DNA of 20,041 nucleotides from the IMG/VR virus record IMGVR_UViG_3300025238_000004, positions 1 through 20,041 of that record; one strand, written 5' to 3'. Numbering within the stretch: the first letter of the stretch is position 1; every line of letters starts with the position of its first letter. Below are positions 2,149 through 17,365 of the stretch, piece after piece. Origin of the DNA: a virus. The notes beneath the pieces were generated by a model, which saw only the letters and a list, made by a program, of their open reading frames with translations, did not search any database and was not told where the DNA came from. The position numbers were made by a program, and so were the translations under genes.

Positions 2149-2168
2149 AACTTTTTCATTCTAATAGC

Positions 2169-2198
2169 GGTGGTTTTTCTGTTGCTAAGAAAACCACC
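2169..2198 (-). other. Hairpin at the 3' end of the tmRNA coding piece
   Basis: GGTGGTTTTCT (2198-2188) and AGAAAAACCACC (2180-2169) form a long stem with one bulged base and a seven-base loop TAGCAAC. No T-run follows, so it is more likely a structural 3' helix of the coding RNA than a terminator. GTGGTGG just after the tag stop could also pair with the same CCACC strand, which would allow a pseudoknot or an alternative fold. Confidence 0.6.
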
Positions 2199-2217
2199 AA
2201 ACTCCCACCACTTTTTT

Positions 2218-2253
2218 TTAAGCGGCTAGTTGATAATCAAAGTTATCAGTTGT
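2218..2253 (-). other. tmRNA proteolysis-tag reading frame
   Basis: The frame ending at TAA (2220-2218) reads TTDNFDYQLAA. The resume codon is probably ACA (2253) or ACT (2250); starting at ACT gives ten encoded residues, the same number as the E. coli tag ANDENYALAA. The DNF block matches the ANDNF start of alphaproteobacterial tags such as that of Caulobacter, and the C-terminal LAA is the classic ClpX-recognised ending. An ATG occurs three codons before the ACA, in the same frame, but it should not be annotated as a gene start. Confidence 0.85.
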
Positions 2254-2299
2254 TTTTTCCATAACCCTTTCGTATTGCAATCGAATCCATGGCGCCCCC

Positions 2300-2318
2300 T
2301 CATATCGTTATTAATCAA
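2300..2318 (-). other. Intervening spacer removed between the tmRNA pieces
   Basis: Nineteen AT-rich bases lie between the discriminator A of the acceptor piece (2319) and the first G of the coding piece (2299). In known permuted tmRNAs this segment is cut out by tRNA-type processing (RNase P making the 5' end of the coding piece, 3' nucleases then CCA addition on the acceptor piece). The absence of encoded CCA fits that. The processing itself is inferred from the family. Confidence 0.75.
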
Positions 2319-2376
2319 TGGAGGCGGGAGAAATCGAATCTCCGTCTTACAATCCTACTTAACGGATTACTTAGTT

Positions 2377-2492: not shown

Positions 2493-3206
2493 TTATGTAT
2501 TAAGGCCTTGCATATTATCTTCTTGAGTAAAAATCTTTAAAGATTCTTCAAGTAGGTGTAGATAATCTTTTTTATCTTTAACAAATTCTTGAACAGTTCC
2601 ATCTTCAGTTACAACCAAAATCGCAATCTGGTCTATACTTATTCCAGTTCTTTCTTCAAACATCTCAGAATATGCAGTTGCTTGTATGTAATAATTTTCA
2701 TTCCATTCATCATTTCGTTCACTTCTTGATGTCTTAAAATCAATTACAGTAGGTATTCCATAGTATTTCGCAACACAATCCACCCTACCAGCAACCATTA
2801 ATTTATCTGACCATAATGAAGTTTCCTGTGCATATATGTTATCAATATTTTTTAATACTTGGTCTTTTAATCTATTAAATAAACAATATCCAAGAAAATT
2901 TCTTTGTGAATGTTTTGCAAAATCGGTTGAATTATAAATGTGTTGGTTCATCAAATAATCTTCACACATTTTATGAACAGCAGAACCACGACTAGCTGCA
3001 GTTCTAGCAATATGATTCGCAACATCTTCTCCAACTCGTTGTCGCCATTCAAATAATCCTTCTTTTTTTCTATTGGATAAAACTGTCGTTATAGACGGAT
3101 AAAGAATTCCTTCTGGAGTTATATAATATCGTTTTCTATCTACATTCTTTGTTGAAATTTCTGGAACATATTTTATTTCTCTTTTAAATTCATATAATTT
3201 ATTCAT
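2493..3206 (-). CDS. PD-(D/E)XK family exonuclease
   Basis: This is probably a metal-dependent DNA exonuclease of the RecB/MGME1-like PD-(D/E)XK class, often found beside phoH in T4-like marine phages. Numbered from the ATG at 3206 it shows RGSAVHK (His 78), a Glu at 128, AGRVD (Asp 143), the core VIDFKTS (Asp 156, Lys 158) and Q175-x3-Y179, which together are the catalytic signature of the fold. The frame can be extended to a TTG at 3239 overlapping the phoH end, but the ATG 19 bases after the phoH stop is the more natural start; neither has a strong ribosome binding site. tRNA-Ala follows three bases after the stop. A recombination/repair or host-DNA turnover role is inferred. Confidence 0.85.
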   Translation of the reverse strand: MNKLYEFKREIKYVPEISTKNVDRKRYYITPEGILYPSITTVLSNRKKEGLFEWRQRVGEDVANHIARTAASRGSAVHKMCEDYLMNQHIYNSTDFAKHSQRNFLGYCLFNRLKDQVLKNIDNIYAQETSLWSDKLMVAGRVDCVAKYYGIPTVIDFKTSRSERNDEWNENYYIQATAYSEMFEERTGISIDQIAILVVTEDGTVQEFVKDKKDYLHLLEESLKIFTQEDNMQGLNT

Positions 3207-3225
3207 AATATATATTTTTTCGTTA

Positions 3226-3939
3226 TCAACCACCAACAAGTCCTAATTTAATTTTATTAATCAAATAATTTCTAACAAATCCTGAACGAACTATATCACC
3301 GAGGTTATATTCAATTAATGTAAATTCTTCCATTTGTTCAAGAATTCTAGTAAAATCTAAAATAGCATTTTTCTCTCGTGTCTTAACTAAATCAGTTTGG
3401 TCTATATCACCACAGAAAATTATTTTACTATCTTGACCAACTCTTGTAATAATAGTATCTAATTCATGAAAATTTAAATTTTGAGATTCATCTACAATAA
3501 TAATAGAATTATCAAAAGTTAATCCTCGAAGAAAAGAAGTTGAAAGAAAATATAAAGTTTGTTGTGTTTTCAATCTATCATACAACGAACTAAATGCAAC
3601 TTCATTTGGTTGTTCAAACATAAACTGCACCATATTTTGATATACCGTTTGATATAAAAGTGTTTTATCTTCTTCATCACCAGAAACAGATTCTATATCT
3701 CTTGTTGGCATTAATGAACGAACAAGACATACTCTATGATATGGACTTTTTAAATCCAGAACATCTTTAAGTGCAAGATATAATGCAACAAAAGTTTTTC
3801 CTGTTCCAGCAGCACCATATTGAAAAAGATTTTGTCCTTTTTTAAATGCATCAAATGCTACTTTTTGATTATCCGTAACTGGTTTTATATTAACCAATTG
3901 AGAATCTGTAATTTCTTTTACTTTCTTTTGTGTCGCCAT
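3226..3939 (-). CDS. phoH: PhoH-like P-loop ATPase
   Basis: PhoH-family proteins are RNA/DNA-helicase-like ATPases, common in marine phages, with an unproven role (phosphate-stress and RNA-metabolism links have been proposed). At 237 aa it contains Walker A GAAGTGKT (42-49), a conserved LVRSLMPTRDIESVSGD segment (72-88), Walker B IIIVDESQN (146-154) and the motif GDIDQTDL (177-184), in the family order. GAGGG lies upstream of its ATG. The downstream exonuclease frame begins within or just past its 3' end, so the two are probably cotranscribed. An intergenic region with a possible small ORF and a late-type promoter precedes it. Confidence 0.92.
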   Translation of the reverse strand: MATQKKVKEITDSQLVNIKPVTDNQKVAFDAFKKGQNLFQYGAAGTGKTFVALYLALKDVLDLKSPYHRVCLVRSLMPTRDIESVSGDEEDKTLLYQTVYQNMVQFMFEQPNEVAFSSLYDRLKTQQTLYFLSTSFLRGLTFDNSIIIVDESQNLNFHELDTIITRVGQDSKIIFCGDIDQTDLVKTREKNAILDFTRILEQMEEFTLIEYNLGDIVRSGFVRNYLINKIKLGLVGG

Positions 3940-8596: not shown

Positions 8597-10696
8597 TTAT
8601 TTCCTCATGAGAATATATAATTCCCATTCTTTTTGCTTCCTTATATTTATCGCATTATTCAGGTCGGTTTGGTATTTGAGAACTGGGTCGTTTGCAGTTA
8701 TTAATGCGAGTAGTTTGTTTTCATTTTCATATATGTTAAATTTATAAGTATCCAACATTACATTATTATCTTGGTAAATCGGTTTTTGATTATCATATAA
8801 TTGTCGAGTATCAAATAAATTTGCATTTATATTGCCATATTCTTTTCCTATATCAATCTGATTTTTTATCATAACAGCAGCAAGAATATGATGCACCGCC
8901 TCCAATTGTTTATCCAATCCCTTAATTCTTTCTCCAATCTTTTGAGCAATCTTATCTACATCTACTTTAAGTTCAATTTTCTTCTGTTTCTTTTCTTTAT
9001 CAACTTTTGCCTTTTTATCCTTTATCTTTACCTTACTTTTTACCTCTGCTTTTTTCTCTTTTGGTTCATCTTCTTCTTCTTCATCAGATTCTTCTTTGGA
9101 TACGATAGTTGATTTTTCTTCTTTCTCCTCAGTTGGAGTATCTATTTCTTCTTCAACATCATCTGTTTTCGCAATTGGTGTTTCTTCAGGTTCTTCTTCA
9201 ACCACTTCTTCTTTTGCTATACTTGTAAATGTTTGTGTAGTAGATTTTTCTTCTTTCATAACAGGTTCATCATTTATTTCTTCTGGCGATTCTGCAATAA
9301 ATTCTTCATTTTCCCCAACAGATTCATCTCCATCAAATTCTTCTGGTTCATTATTACCAATATTAGTAAATGTTACAGTAGGTGGTTCTTCATCCATATC
9401 CATATCCATTTCCATATCCATTTCCATTCCCGAATTTACTTCTTCATACATTTCTGTTTCTATTTCTTCAAAAACTTCCATTATTTCTGGTTCTTCAAAT
9501 TCCATATCACCCAACGATTCTTCCGTATAATCAGGCACATCTATCATATCTTCATCAGGTTCAAATAATTGAAACATATTTTCCATTCCTTCAAAAACAC
9601 CAGCAAACATATCTTCAATATCATCTTCAATTGAAGTTGTTGCAAAACTTTCTGTAAAGATTTCATTATCTTCTATATAAAATGTTTCTTCAATAATTTC
9701 TTCATAATATCCTATTTCTTGACCAACATACATATTTTCACTTTCAATTTCATCTTCAATTAAATTTTGAACGATATTAAGGTCATCATCCATATTCTCT
9801 ATTATATCAGATACACCTTCATCAGGACAAGTTGATGGTGTTTGTTCCCAGCAATATAAAATTAATGTGTTAACCGATTCCGTTACAGCTGTGCTTGATG
9901 TTGTAACTGGTTCAACCCATTCAACAGTAATTTCATTATATCCTACATCTAATTCTACATCATCAATATCTGGTCCCCAATGATAAGCAGTATATCCACT
10001 ACCAGCATTTGATACAGTTACTTTGATACTATAATCTGTTTCTGAATTTCCAGTATTAATATAAGTATCAGTATAATTAATATAAGTATTACCAGTATTA
10101 GAATAATTCTTTCCAGATATTATTCTTTCTTGTGTCGTTACATTCCCACTAGCACCTGTTATGGTTTGTGTTAATTTGGTAGTATTACCTGTAAGATTAT
10201 GCCAATACCATAAATCTGCTGACATCTTAGATGAAAATCCATTATTGATTTCTGCTTGTGATAGTTCAGCATCATCTTTAACAGATATGGTTTGTTCTAT
10301 TTTAGAATCATAACCTGAACAAAAAGAACCACCAGGTGAATTGCCACCTCCTTGCGATACATTATTGTGTCCACAATTATAACCAGTAATCGTCCAACCA
10401 TCATTTGAATATGATGTGCCTGTACCAAATGTAGAGTTAGTTAAAACATCTCCTGTTTGTGTTGTATCTTCGGAAACTATATTTTGATTATACCCTGGCA
10501 CGGTTGTCGTGGTAATCGTAGTAGTTGTTGTAGTAGTCGTTGTGGAAATATCACCTTGTTGTGGGATATTCTGTTGAACAACATCAGCTGATGTCGATGT
10601 AGAAGTAACATCTGATTTTACGGTTATAGGTGTTAACCAGAAAATCAGAAAAAGTATCCCAACAAATTTTAATATAGTTTTAATAAATTTGGACAA
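8597..10696 (-). CDS. Large secreted acidic low-complexity protein
   Basis: 699 aa, not assigned. Segments: signal peptide (1-28); a Thr tract (52-65); a Gly/Asn/Thr-rich beta domain (about 85-260) with cysteine pairs 108/126 and 282/290; a very acidic stretch (295-545) including a Met-Glu-Met-Asp repeat (424-435); a Lys-rich segment (546-575); and a helical C-terminal domain (576-699). The start is TTG, supported by GGGAG seven bases upstream, by the signal peptide it completes and by the lack of a nearby ATG. It lies just after another secreted protein gene. The two probably act in the periplasm or at the cell surface (adsorption control, exclusion or envelope change), but no known domain confirms this. 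Confidence 0.8.
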   Translation of the reverse strand: MSKFIKTILKFVGILFLIFWLTPITVKSDVTSTSTSADVVQQNIPQQGDISTTTTTTTTTITTTTVPGYNQNIVSEDTTQTGDVLTNSTFGTGTSYSNDGWTITGYNCGHNNVSQGGGNSPGGSFCSGYDSKIEQTISVKDDAELSQAEINNGFSSKMSADLWYWHNLTGNTTKLTQTITGASGNVTTQERIISGKNYSNTGNTYINYTDTYINTGNSETDYSIKVTVSNAGSGYTAYHWGPDIDDVELDVGYNEITVEWVEPVTTSSTAVTESVNTLILYCWEQTPSTCPDEGVSDIIENMDDDLNIVQNLIEDEIESENMYVGQEIGYYEEIIEETFYIEDNEIFTESFATTSIEDDIEDMFAGVFEGMENMFQLFEPDEDMIDVPDYTEESLGDMEFEEPEIMEVFEEIETEMYEEVNSGMEMDMEMDMDMDEEPPTVTFTNIGNNEPEEFDGDESVGENEEFIAESPEEINDEPVMKEEKSTTQTFTSIAKEEVVEEEPEETPIAKTDDVEEEIDTPTEEKEEKSTIVSKEESDEEEEDEPKEKKAEVKSKVKIKDKKAKVDKEKKQKKIELKVDVDKIAQKIGERIKGLDKQLEAVHHILAAVMIKNQIDIGKEYGNINANLFDTRQLYDNQKPIYQDNNVMLDTYKFNIYENENKLLALITANDPVLKYQTDLNNAINIRKQKEWELYILMRK
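9392..9430 (-). repeat. Hexamer repeat coding Met-Glu/Met-Asp
   Basis: About six near-perfect copies of a TCCATA/TCCATT hexamer on the plus strand, coding alternating Met-Asp and Met-Glu pairs. Slippage of such a repeat would change the protein by pairs of residues without breaking the frame. Confidence 0.7.
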
Positions 10697-12626: not shown

Positions 12627-14570
12627 CTACGAAATTCCAGCGGGGGTAAAAGTGATATCACAACTATTTCCATCTTGCCCACCACATGCCAATTCTTGAC
12701 TTGAAATAGTCGTATCTGTAGATTCGTATCTTGATAACATTCGCCAGTCTACATTTTTAGGCATCTTCTTTAAAAATTCATTATATTCTTCTTCCGTACA
12801 ATCTTGATACGGTGCTTGTTTATAAACATGGTCGGTAAATGGTAAAAATGACACGCCGCTCATAAAATCAAAATTATTATAAACCCATGCTCCTACTTCC
12901 ATCCATTCTTTTTCTTTTACAGAAATCGTTACAGATGGTTTATGTTCGCACCAATGTTCTTGATAAATTTTCCAAACCTCTAATTGTTCAATAGCAGTCA
13001 TATCACTACGAAAGACTGCATCTTTATCACATGATTGTGGAAACGAAAATACAACATTATGTTTGTTCGTATAATCTTCTTCATTTGGAAATCCTGCATC
13101 AATCATCATTTTTGAAAGTGGGTCTTTCACATCTCCACGAACTGTACGAATATAAAATGGATTATGTCTCGCATGAATACCAGACGCAGAATTAACTAAT
13201 TGTGAAACTGTTCCAGATGGTTTTACACAAGTAATCGCAACTGAATGATTAATACCAATATCCTTTGCATATTTTTTATTTGTATCAATTGCAACTTGTT
13301 TTAACTCTTGTAATCTTTTATCCAAGCCCTTTTCTTTACCATTCGTAAAACAACATTCCATTATACCTGTAAGAGAAACCCCAAGAAGTCTTTCTTCTTG
13401 GCAATTCTTTTTCCATTCTTTTGCAATATATTTAAAATTAAGTAATGTGGATTGAAAAGTGCCTAAAATAGTCGCAAGTCTTACCTTTTCCTTTAAGGTT
13501 TCCATAGTATCTTCTGGTCTTATTACAACTTCCGATAAATTACAAAATTCTCTTGAACGTAAGATGATTTCAGAACAAGGATTTGTTCCAAAGTCTATTC
13601 CATCAGTTTGTCTTCTGCCATTTTGAGCAGCAATCTTGACAGCAGAAGCACGATTAAAAATTCCTCTTTCACCAGATTTAGAATCATATAATGATTTCCA
13701 TTCTTTTAAGAAAATTCCCGTATCTGGAGTTTCATTATATATCGCAGAATTGTTTGCAAGTGCTCTCTGTGGTTCTGTTTCCCACCATCTTCCAGTCTTT
13801 GCAGCTCTCATTCTATCATCAGATAAATTAGAAAGAGAAATCAATGCAGAACGTCTTACACCACCCACGACAACTATCTCTGCAATCTTACAAATAATAT
13901 CATGACATTCAAGAGAAGTAAGTTTTCTACCAGCTGCATTGCGTAATATTTTTATACAAAATTTAAATAAATCATCTAATGGTTCTGGCCCAGATGCACG
14001 ACCACCAAAAGTTTTTAATGGTGTGCCTGCTGGTCTTACTTTACTTAAATCCCATTTTGGAATTTGTCCATGATATACCATTGCAAGAAGGTCTTTAAAT
14101 GCTTTTGCCCAACCAAGTTTTGAATCTGCAACAACTATCTTTGTATCAGTTGGATGAAATTCTTCTGCAACAACTGGAAGACTATTAACTGCTTGTCTGT
14201 CAACAGAAAATCCAACTCCTGTTCCATTCATTAAAATATAAAGAATTTCATCAAATGCTTGTGGTCTATCTACTGCAACATACGAACAATTATATCCTGC
14301 AATATTTTCTTTTTCAAGTGCATCACCAGCAGTCATAAGACATCTCATAGAAGGCATAATTTTTAACTCTAATATAAAATCTCTCAATTGTTTTTTCAAC
14401 TTATCCGTCATTTTATATTTGTGCATTTTCTTTAAATGTTTCTCAAAAAAAGTAAAATATCTTGATATCGTTTCATTCCAAGTTTCTCGTCTATTTTCTT
14501 CAGGTATCCATCTTGAATATCTTGATAAATGAATAAATTGTTGATATTGAGTAGGTAAATTATTAGGCAT
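12627..14570 (-). CDS. nrdJ: Class II (adenosylcobalamin-dependent) ribonucleotide reductase
   Basis: This enzyme makes deoxyribonucleotides using a 5'-deoxyadenosyl radical from vitamin B12 coenzyme and needs no oxygen or second subunit. The 647-aa protein matches the monomeric Lactobacillus-type enzyme (739 aa) but is about 90 residues shorter. It has PSMRCLMTAG (73-82), YNCSYV with C95, ILMNGTGVGFSVDRQ (112-126), VVGGVRRSALIS (234-245), GTNPCSEI with N330, radical C332 and E334, C343 eleven residues later (the redox partner of C95, same spacing as 408/419 in the model enzyme) and KPSGTVSQLVNSASGIHARH (450-469). The tail keeps two cysteines (629, 637) for re-reduction. AAGGAG lies 11 bases before the ATG. 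It follows the primase gene closely. Confidence 0.95.
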   Translation of the reverse strand: MPNNLPTQYQQFIHLSRYSRWIPEENRRETWNETISRYFTFFEKHLKKMHKYKMTDKLKKQLRDFILELKIMPSMRCLMTAGDALEKENIAGYNCSYVAVDRPQAFDEILYILMNGTGVGFSVDRQAVNSLPVVAEEFHPTDTKIVVADSKLGWAKAFKDLLAMVYHGQIPKWDLSKVRPAGTPLKTFGGRASGPEPLDDLFKFCIKILRNAAGRKLTSLECHDIICKIAEIVVVGGVRRSALISLSNLSDDRMRAAKTGRWWETEPQRALANNSAIYNETPDTGIFLKEWKSLYDSKSGERGIFNRASAVKIAAQNGRRQTDGIDFGTNPCSEIILRSREFCNLSEVVIRPEDTMETLKEKVRLATILGTFQSTLLNFKYIAKEWKKNCQEERLLGVSLTGIMECCFTNGKEKGLDKRLQELKQVAIDTNKKYAKDIGINHSVAITCVKPSGTVSQLVNSASGIHARHNPFYIRTVRGDVKDPLSKMMIDAGFPNEEDYTNKHNVVFSFPQSCDKDAVFRSDMTAIEQLEVWKIYQEHWCEHKPSVTISVKEKEWMEVGAWVYNNFDFMSGVSFLPFTDHVYKQAPYQDCTEEEYNEFLKKMPKNVDWRMLSRYESTDTTISSQELACGGQDGNSCDITFTPAGIS

Positions 14571-16570: not shown

Positions 16571-17365
16571 TTATACTATTGCAGACCAAATATTTCTTAG
16601 TTTATTTGAATAACGAGTAGATGAATGGTCTTTAAATCCATCAAAAAACTGCCACTTTTTAAGTGCAGCCCATCTGCCTCTCATTTTATCTTTGAATCTC
16701 TGCCAGTATGATTCTCCATTCCTCATATTTCCGTAATGGTTGATATAACACAATTCCCCATGATGTGAAAACCCCATTATCCATAATGGAAATTTTGGAA
16801 CTACATCATTATTATTAACAAATCTTTTATGTTCTACTTTCAATCCTTTACAAAAAATTTCACCACCTACTCTGGGTGAACCATATGTATATAATTTTGG
16901 ATTTAGGTGTTCCAATCTTGATGCACAAATAGTTGCCATGGCAGCACCGAGTGAATGTCCAGTAATCCAAATCTGTTTTTTAGTTGTATTCGGCAATACC
17001 TCTAAAATACTATTCCAAAGTTTATCAACTTCTTTTTGAAATCCTCTATGTACCCAACCTTCTTGACCACTTTTTGCTGGTCTTTTAAAAAGAGATATAT
17101 CCGCTTTAATATCATTCAATTCTTGTGGTTCTGTTCCACGAAATGCAATTATAATATGTCCTGTATTACTTGCAATATGAACTTGAGCACTTTTAATACT
17201 TAAATATGTATGATTTTTAAAACCTATATTGTCAAATTGTTCTTTGACAAATTTTCCACGGTGGTAAGCAAGTGAAGAACACTCTGCAAAAAAATAATTA
17301 TTTTGCACATCATTTTCAAAAGTTATACCTAGACAATAATTAAAATATTTTTTTAAACTTGGCAT
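16571..17365 (-). CDS. Class 3 lipase (alpha/beta hydrolase)
   Basis: A probable esterase/lipase hydrolysing acyl lipids. The 264-aa protein has the Lipase_3 order: HIIIAFRGTEPQE (70-82, oxyanion strand), VHRGFQKEVD (105-114), the nucleophile elbow ITGHSLGAAMA with Ser 138 (134-144), LYTYGSPRVGG (158-168), NNNDVVPKFP with Asp 187, and FSHHGELCYI with His 201 or 202, giving a complete Ser-Asp-His triad. No signal peptide is seen, so it would need a holin or lysis to reach the outer membrane, or could act on the inner membrane from inside. It directly follows the lipoprotein of the spanin-like pair (one base gap), which suggests a lysis or lipid-remodelling task. No endolysin is present in this window. 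Confidence 0.88.
   Translation of the reverse strand: MPSLKKYFNYCLGITFENDVQNNYFFAECSSLAYHRGKFVKEQFDNIGFKNHTYLSIKSAQVHIASNTGHIIIAFRGTEPQELNDIKADISLFKRPAKSGQEGWVHRGFQKEVDKLWNSILEVLPNTTKKQIWITGHSLGAAMATICASRLEHLNPKLYTYGSPRVGGEIFCKGLKVEHKRFVNNNDVVPKFPLWIMGFSHHGELCYINHYGNMRNGESYWQRFKDKMRGRWAALKKWQFFDGFKDHSSTRYSNKLRNIWSAIV

Follow-up and report, generated by a model that had tools for sequence, protein, structure and literature searches.

How much of a tmRNA, the RNA by which bacteria release stalled ribosomes and mark the incomplete proteins, can a bacteriophage do without? The question is raised by a locus in a stretch of viral DNA of 20,041 nucleotides (IMG/VR record IMGVR_UViG_3300025238_000004, hereafter the window), in which a gene recognizable as a tmRNA has neither the PK1 segment, nor the usual start of the tag, nor an encoded CCA. 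The same design recurs in 12 further contigs (L002-L008 and L010-L014), which together with the window form a clade of three groups, namely the window type, the L005/L006 type and the L010 type. With such genes, the clade allows a natural test of whether a tmRNA can dispense at once with PK1, with a GCN resume codon and with an encoded CCA. In the reading that we prefer, to which we give a probability of roughly 0.7, the gene would belong to a T4-like marine phage and encode a working two-piece tmRNA of miniature size, which would use the SmpB of the host and would have been reduced from the gene of related phages.

Identification of a Permuted tmRNA Gene

By its sequence, the interval 2165-2372 on the minus strand of the window is a circularly permuted two-piece tmRNA gene, as proposed in an earlier note made from the letters of this DNA. 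The Rfam model tmRNA_permuted (RF04321) matches positions 2371-2218 (-) with 55.2 bits, over its gathering threshold of 47, and an E value of 1.5e-8; this value refers to both strands of the window, searched in full with all 4227 Rfam families, and the match is therefore far beyond chance. The note had named as counter-evidence the absence of any covariance-model match in either orientation; the RF04321 match is present, and all the elements listed for a phage-borne permuted tmRNA were located. The permuted order proper to the tmRNA_permuted family, i.e., acceptor piece, spacer, coding piece, is read in the window. A broken tRNA was considered as a reading of the match and ruled out, because the T-arm/acceptor half runs on into this permuted order and the tag.

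The detection tools that the note had recommended gave divided answers. Among the covariance models, RF04321 exceeds its threshold, whereas alpha_tmRNA (RF01849) stays at 15.6 bits against a threshold of 50; the beta (RF01850, 44.1 bits against 84) and cyano (RF01851, 43.1 bits against 70) models are likewise below threshold on the locus. ARAGORN, also recommended, reported in the window only the neighboring tRNA-Ala(TGC) and missed the tmRNA, and it detected a tmRNA in none of the 13 records of the clade, compared to 17 of 30 records of other phages.

Architecture of the Two Pieces

The acceptor piece (2319-2372, minus strand as all features below), delimited by the Rfam match and by reading of the sequence, comprises the 3' side of P2, the T-arm, the 3' half of the acceptor stem and A73, with no CCA encoded. 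Its T-arm, GGAGA-TTCGATT-TCTCC (2343-2327), is complete as read in the sequence and is compensated in L005/L006. Then comes an intervening spacer (2300-2318), which is expected to be excised, with RNase P acting at G1, and which is identical to that of L010 at 13/19 positions and to that of L005 at 15/19. The coding piece (2168-2299, with a predicted 3' end) carries in turn GGGGGCG, the signature GGATTCGA (2288-2281, by reading of the sequence), P2, a short A-rich linker, the tag, H5 and a 3' hairpin. The linker from P2 to the tag (2248-2260) has 13 nt and replaces the PK1 segment of 44-45 nt of related phages. The tag frame (2247-2218) reads GAU AAC UUU GAU UAU CAA CUA GCC GCU UAA, i.e., DNFDYQLAA-stop, and an H5-like helix, recognized by covariation, spans its stop codon by pairing GCCGCUU with AAGUGGU (2207-2226). 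The 3' hairpin (2168-2199), placed by alignment, bears a loop of the CUURGCAACAG type, and a similar loop follows the tag in the phage tmRNAs L015 and L016.

The two pieces are joined by an acceptor stem in which GGGGGCG (2299-2293) pairs with CGCCTCC (2326-2320) at 7/7 positions, including G3:U70. All 13 clade records preserve this stem intact, together with G3:U70 and A73, which are elements of alanine identity. The 7-bp acceptor stem, the complete T-arm, the signature and the tag frame described earlier for this DNA are thus all confirmed.

Pairing and Conservation

The covariation alignment includes six clade sequences, five of them distinct, and 98.1% of its cells pair. Three of the five T-stem pairs are changed on both sides in L005/L006 (GTGGG-TTCAATT-CCCAC), and in the L010 group one H5 pair is changed on both sides (C-G to U-A) and another on one side. 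None of 500 shuffles reached the observed covariation score, percentage paired or count of double-change cells; the other two of the five measures were not outstanding, the number of pairs with a double change being matched in 50/500 shuffles and that of further pair types in 386/500. The three T-stem changes may represent a single event, in which a T-arm was swapped in from a tRNA. The whole T-arm differs between these close relatives, with GTGGG/CCCAC around TTCAATT at L005:3863-3879 (the same in L006) and GGAGA/TCTCC around TTCGATT in the window.

The two 7-bp P2 helices across the break, also put forward in the earlier note, can be drawn, but all changes in them are one-sided, one position is mismatched in the L010 group, and the minimum-energy fold computed with RNAcofold for the two pieces of three sequences contains the acceptor stem and the T-arm without choosing P2. 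In homologous phages, where the note had named uncompensated breaks of the acceptor and P2 pairings as counter-evidence, the acceptor stem is intact and the T-arm changes are compensated, while the support for P2 is weak.

Between the window and L010, identity reaches 49/54 in the acceptor piece and 34/39 in the tRNA-like/P2 part of the coding piece, compared to 631/777 in the exonuclease gene, 24/43 in the promoter gap and 13/19 in the spacer. In the comparison of the window with L005, identity is slightly lower in the acceptor piece (47/54) than in the exonuclease gene (693/766).

A Clade Without the PK1 Segment

Measured from G1 through the stop codon, the clade genes span 80-82 nt, compared to 108-209 nt in all others measured. 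The latter include 30 other parsed phage records (120-181 nt), 48 alphaproteobacterial genomes with a strictly parsed tag (112-209 nt) and six alphaproteobacterial loci parsed by looser rules (120-181 nt), and 13 unparsed alphaproteobacterial loci gave by eye no sign of shortening. The alphaproteobacterial sample consists of 70 loci from 68 of 132 genomes with a match (142 examined); among its 51 strictly parsed loci, one is cut off before the tag and two are second copies in genomes already counted.

The shortening falls mainly on the position of the PK1 segment, which has 11-13 nt in the clade vs. 44-45 nt in 30/30 other phage records. In the window, only 13 nt lie between P2 and GAU, and the PK1 that characterizes alpha_tmRNA (RF01849) is missing. 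The first two tag codons are absent from the clade as well. Among other phages, 17/30 show a simple 4+4 pseudoknot pattern in their PK1 segment, vs. 8.1 expected from shuffles, which supports a PK1 in these phages as a set and not in each one. No clade record (0/13) encodes CCA, while ACCA is encoded in 34/34 loci of the other phages (30 records) and in 48/51 alphaproteobacterial loci, with ACCC or ACCT in the remainder. All clade records (13/13) have TTCGATT or TTCAATT as T-loop, compared to 0/34 loci of other phages and 0/51 strictly parsed alphaproteobacterial loci; in one unparsed alphaproteobacterial locus (L216), a TTCGAC loop is seen by eye.

The loss of PK1 need not destroy function, because in Escherichia coli PK1 is reported to be replaceable by single-stranded RNA or a hairpin (PMC4236655; PMC3968760; see also PMC2481249), although one of these papers cites older work according to which tagging requires PK1 (PMC3968760). 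No description of a phage tmRNA without PK1 was found in the mostly open literature, and one may stand in the supplementary tables of PMC11915505.

Tag Frame and Resume Codon

The most probable tag is DNFDYQLAA (DNINYQLAA for the L010 group), with GAU as predicted resume codon. In E. coli, the resume codon is set by the base at -4 (A86) together with a pyrimidine at -5 (PMC2481249; PMC8363625), and GAU as first codon gives precisely a pyrimidine at -5 and an A at -4, the two bases being CA, CA, and UA in the three clade groups. The corresponding bases are UA before GCA in 30/30 other phage records and pyrimidine-A in 30/39 alphaproteobacterial loci with a readable ANDN start, ten more loci falling outside the ANDN pattern. 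Two other resume codons were considered and ruled out: ACA/AUA would have T at -4 in the L005 group, and ACC, the L005 counterpart of ACU, would have a purine at -5.

Throughout the clade, the frame closes with a stop preceded by a hydrophobic degron in -AA (DNFDYQLAA-stop, DNINYQLAA-stop), and the tag length, LAA and the stop are kept while the linker before them varies between 11, 12, and 13 nt. An ordinary open reading frame cannot explain the frame in L005/L006, where ACA ACC GAU directly follows an in-frame UAA, nor in L010-L012, where the nine codons preceding GAU include no ATG, GTG or TTG. Only in the window, and not in the other two groups, does an in-frame ATG (2262-2260) precede GAT, by five codons; this codon, which the earlier note does not mention, would permit a 14-codon open reading frame, MEKTTDNFDYQLAA, and counts against the tag reading.

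Tag sites are changed at 5/60 positions and sites of linker plus spacer at 20/64 (Fisher p = 0.0016, window vs. L005 and L010 pooled), a pooled value that is optimistic, as both comparisons share the window sequence. Taken separately, the difference gives p = 0.013 for L005 and p = 0.076, not significant, for L010. The count for L010 includes four changed tag sites when the one-base length difference is put in the A-run after the stop, and five with the gap placement of MAFFT itself. A search of 84,980 genomes for the pattern NFDYQLAA followed by TAA returned one exact match, in a Rhodobacterales MAG without RF04321 match, which we treated as chance.

Genomic Setting and Distribution

The gene order around the locus is PhoH, PD-(D/E)XK exonuclease (2493-3239, -), tRNA-Ala, tmRNA, gp33-like late-transcription coactivator (1897-2148, -), gp59, and gp32, in agreement with the replication/late-transcription region to which the gene had been assigned from the sequence alone. 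With a PhoH 66.4% identical to that of Melnitz and 64.5% to that of HTVC008M, the window phage is related to these T4-like phages. In a search for named phages with similar DNA, 61 records matched, none of which covered 80% of the query; the best 20 of these had at most 12% coverage and a lowest E value of 0.3, and none was taken as a homologue.

Just before the acceptor piece, a putative promoter of the sigma-70 type (2385-2413, -) consists of TTGACA, 17 nt and CATACT, with TG before the second hexamer; its 10/12 consensus bases are a consensus match only, in a stretch with six promoter-like sites vs. 2.0 expected. At the same place, L010 presents TTGACA-17-TATAAT, with 12/12 consensus bases and two sites vs. 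2.0 expected. Directly upstream of the promoter lies the tRNA-Ala with anticodon TGC (2416-2489, -), found by both Rfam and ARAGORN, and a tRNA-Ala occupies the equivalent place in all eight clade loci scanned (L002, L005, L006, L010-L014). The sequence of this tRNA varies by lineage, with only 40/74 identical positions between the window and L010 and an anticodon CGC in L011, as if the tRNA had been replaced between lineages with the isotype kept.

Of 103 exonuclease relatives found, 80 were kept, and the records of 48 were searched with RF04321, which matched over threshold in 40, including six from the clade itself; the eight records without match are little informative, since their contigs end 8 to 1305 bases past the exonuclease. 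The match is flanked by the exonuclease and gp33 in 33/33 loci (L124-L156, comprising Melnitz and HTVC008M, one contig of the clade and 30 more), two of them (L125, L152) being placed by a match from another search, and four further matching records stand outside this position count. None of 16 records reached by a gp33 search outside the 12 clade contigs carries an RF04321 match, one beginning inside the gene and the other 15 being contigs in which the interval is possibly incomplete; the tmRNA gene is thus not universal in the wider phage group.

A search for SmpB gave no match in the window, in nine contigs (ten virus records in all, to our knowledge none of them a complete genome) or in two related phages with complete genomes; the two bacterial controls were both recognized. 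The tmRNA would thus have to work with host SmpB, and the proposal in the earlier note that the virus has its own ribosome rescue goes too far, even though its tmRNA is there. One may ask why a phage would supply a ribosome-rescue RNA along with a tRNA-Ala and, to judge from these records, leave SmpB out.

Other genes of the window also deserve mention. A B12-dependent ribonucleotide reductase (12627-14570, -) has its best named-phage matches in, among others, Sinorhizobium phage phiM6 (63.1%) and Puniceispirillum phage HMO-2011 (62.3%), whereas PhoH has its closest matches in Melnitz and HTVC008M. A class 3 lipase/esterase gene (16571-17365, -) is present in this T4-like phage (Pfam Lipase_3, 1.4e-22; PHROG esterase/lipase). 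Finally, a protein of 699 residues (8597-10696, -), without PHROG match, shows by eye a signal-like start followed by Thr-rich and then very acidic or charged stretches.

Proposed Function

From the elements, the frame, their position and their conservation, all read in the sequence, we infer transcription, processing, charging, SmpB binding, and tagging as follows. A single transcript would begin directly ahead of the acceptor piece, RNase P would cut at G1 (2299), the spacer would be removed and CCA would be added post-transcriptionally. The two pieces would pair through the acceptor stem and P2, and the RNA would be charged by the host AlaRS, which would recognize G3:U70 and A73. Host SmpB and EF-Tu would then carry the charged RNA to stalled ribosomes, which would switch to the GAU codon at 2247 and add (A)DNFDYQLAA, a tag ending in the LAA signal for ClpXP.

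A bolder version, to which we give slightly less than an even chance, is that the tRNA-like domain, P2, a linker of 11-13 nt, a GAU-started tag of nine residues, H5 and one hairpin would make a fully working tmRNA without PK1, and that together with the tRNA-Ala it would form a two-gene alanine module by which the phage would take over host ribosome rescue in infected cells and put a degron of its own choice on stalled proteins. If this is true, the clade would provide the natural counterpart of the PK1 replacements made in E. coli.

The main rival to a working tmRNA is a decoy that would titrate SmpB, i.e., a reduced tRNA-like RNA that would bind host SmpB and/or AlaRS and block trans-translation, its mRNA part having fallen into disuse. 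The loss of the PK1 segment and of part of the tag would fit such a role, as would the lack of SmpB in the window and in the two complete related genomes, and a tmRNA limited to the tRNA-like domain (TLD) is known in mycobacteriophage DS6A, a similar molecule being a strong inhibitor of tmRNA (PMC4131195). However, a decoy would need neither the tag frame, nor LAA, the stop, H5 and the A at -4, all of which are kept, and the tag changes less than the linker and spacer, so that we consider this role unlikely.

Origin of the Reduced Gene

The most likely ancestor of the miniaturised tmRNA is the tmRNA of the ANDN...DYALAA type found at this place in related phages, from which the PK1 segment and five tag codons would have been lost. 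Compared with the phage-type tag ANDNFASQDYALAA (L016/L137), the tag can be read as less AN and ASQ and with A changed to Q. The alternative that the clade acquired its tmRNA separately, from a non-alphaproteobacterial host of the beta or cyano lineage, draws on the higher scores of the beta (44.1 bits) and cyano (43.1 bits) models over the alpha model (15.6 bits) and on the TTCRATT T-loop, found neither in the 51 strictly parsed alphaproteobacterial loci nor in the 34 loci of other phages. Yet the losses specific to the clade lower the alpha score by themselves, other phages of the group have intermediate TGCAATT T-loops, one base from TTCAATT, and the TTCGAC loop of the unparsed locus L216 is alphaproteobacterial. 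Moreover, the gene sits between exonuclease and gp33, its slot in each of the 33 loci L124-L156, its tag is readable as ANDNF...DYALAA minus codons, and the exonuclease tree puts the clade beside Melnitz (support 95/94, with long branches), among neighbors of which most, where searched, have a tmRNA match. Although the beta and cyano models outscore the alpha one, we therefore prefer the reduction of an inherited phage gene as the probable origin and regard separate acquisition as improbable.

That the inherited gene is simply decaying on its way to loss, as its large losses and the RF04321 scores of six clade records, the lowest of 40 with a match (55-61 vs. 78-124 bits), could suggest, is hardly credible given an identical reduced design in 13 records of three groups, compensatory changes, and, between the window and L010, an acceptor piece and a tRNA-like/P2 part more conserved than the exonuclease gene and the promoter gap.

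Comparison with Known Systems

As a kind, two-piece tmRNAs in marine phages are not novel, having been described in 2022 (PMC9004378). In the ARAGORN survey of that paper, 53 of 133 unique phage tmRNA structures were two-piece, 50 of these 53 having a marine or aquatic phage as their source; one was also reported for 17 of 47 contigs resembling Melnitz (PMC9004378). The closest relative with an annotated gene is the Methylophilales (OM43) phage Melnitz (MZ577097), a T4-like marine phage whose record includes ssrA as a permuted two-piece tmRNA between the PD-(D/E)XK nuclease and the late-transcription coactivator, the same two flanking genes as in the window. Unlike the window, Melnitz has 127 nt from G1 to the stop, a length that accommodates PK1, the tag ANDNYVPVDYALAA, an encoded CCA, a spacer of 146 nt and, just downstream, a match to a glutamine riboswitch, whereas the window has a tRNA-Ala upstream. 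Pelagibacter phage HTVC008M (KC465899) also has a permuted tmRNA in this slot (L110:8379-8588; RF04321 90.6 bits, RF01849 83.8 bits), at a place where its GenBank record has no RNA annotated. Its ACAAAU before the resume codon resembles the ACAACU of the window, but it differs by its tag ANFNEYALAA, an encoded CCA, and 108 nt from G1 to the stop.

As to families, the window gene resembles tmRNA_permuted (RF04321) in its order, tRNA-like domain and tag and in its score over threshold, and lacks features usual in alphaproteobacteria, namely the GGCRGTA T-loop, a segment of PK1 length, the ANDN tag start and CCA. Like the TLD-only tmRNA of mycobacteriophage DS6A, it is phage-borne and reduced; the DS6A molecule is little more than a tRNA-like domain (PMC4131195), whereas the window retains a tag frame in a permuted gene. 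The earlier note did not contain what is unusual in the gene, namely the absence of the PK1 segment, a shortened tag that starts at GAU, the lack of an encoded CCA and a tRNA-Ala next to it. Phage tmRNAs are common in the marine lineage of the window and partly invisible to ARAGORN, the detector of the published survey; while the two-piece tmRNA of a marine phage is not new as a kind, the shortened form described here, on the sequences compared, looks new.
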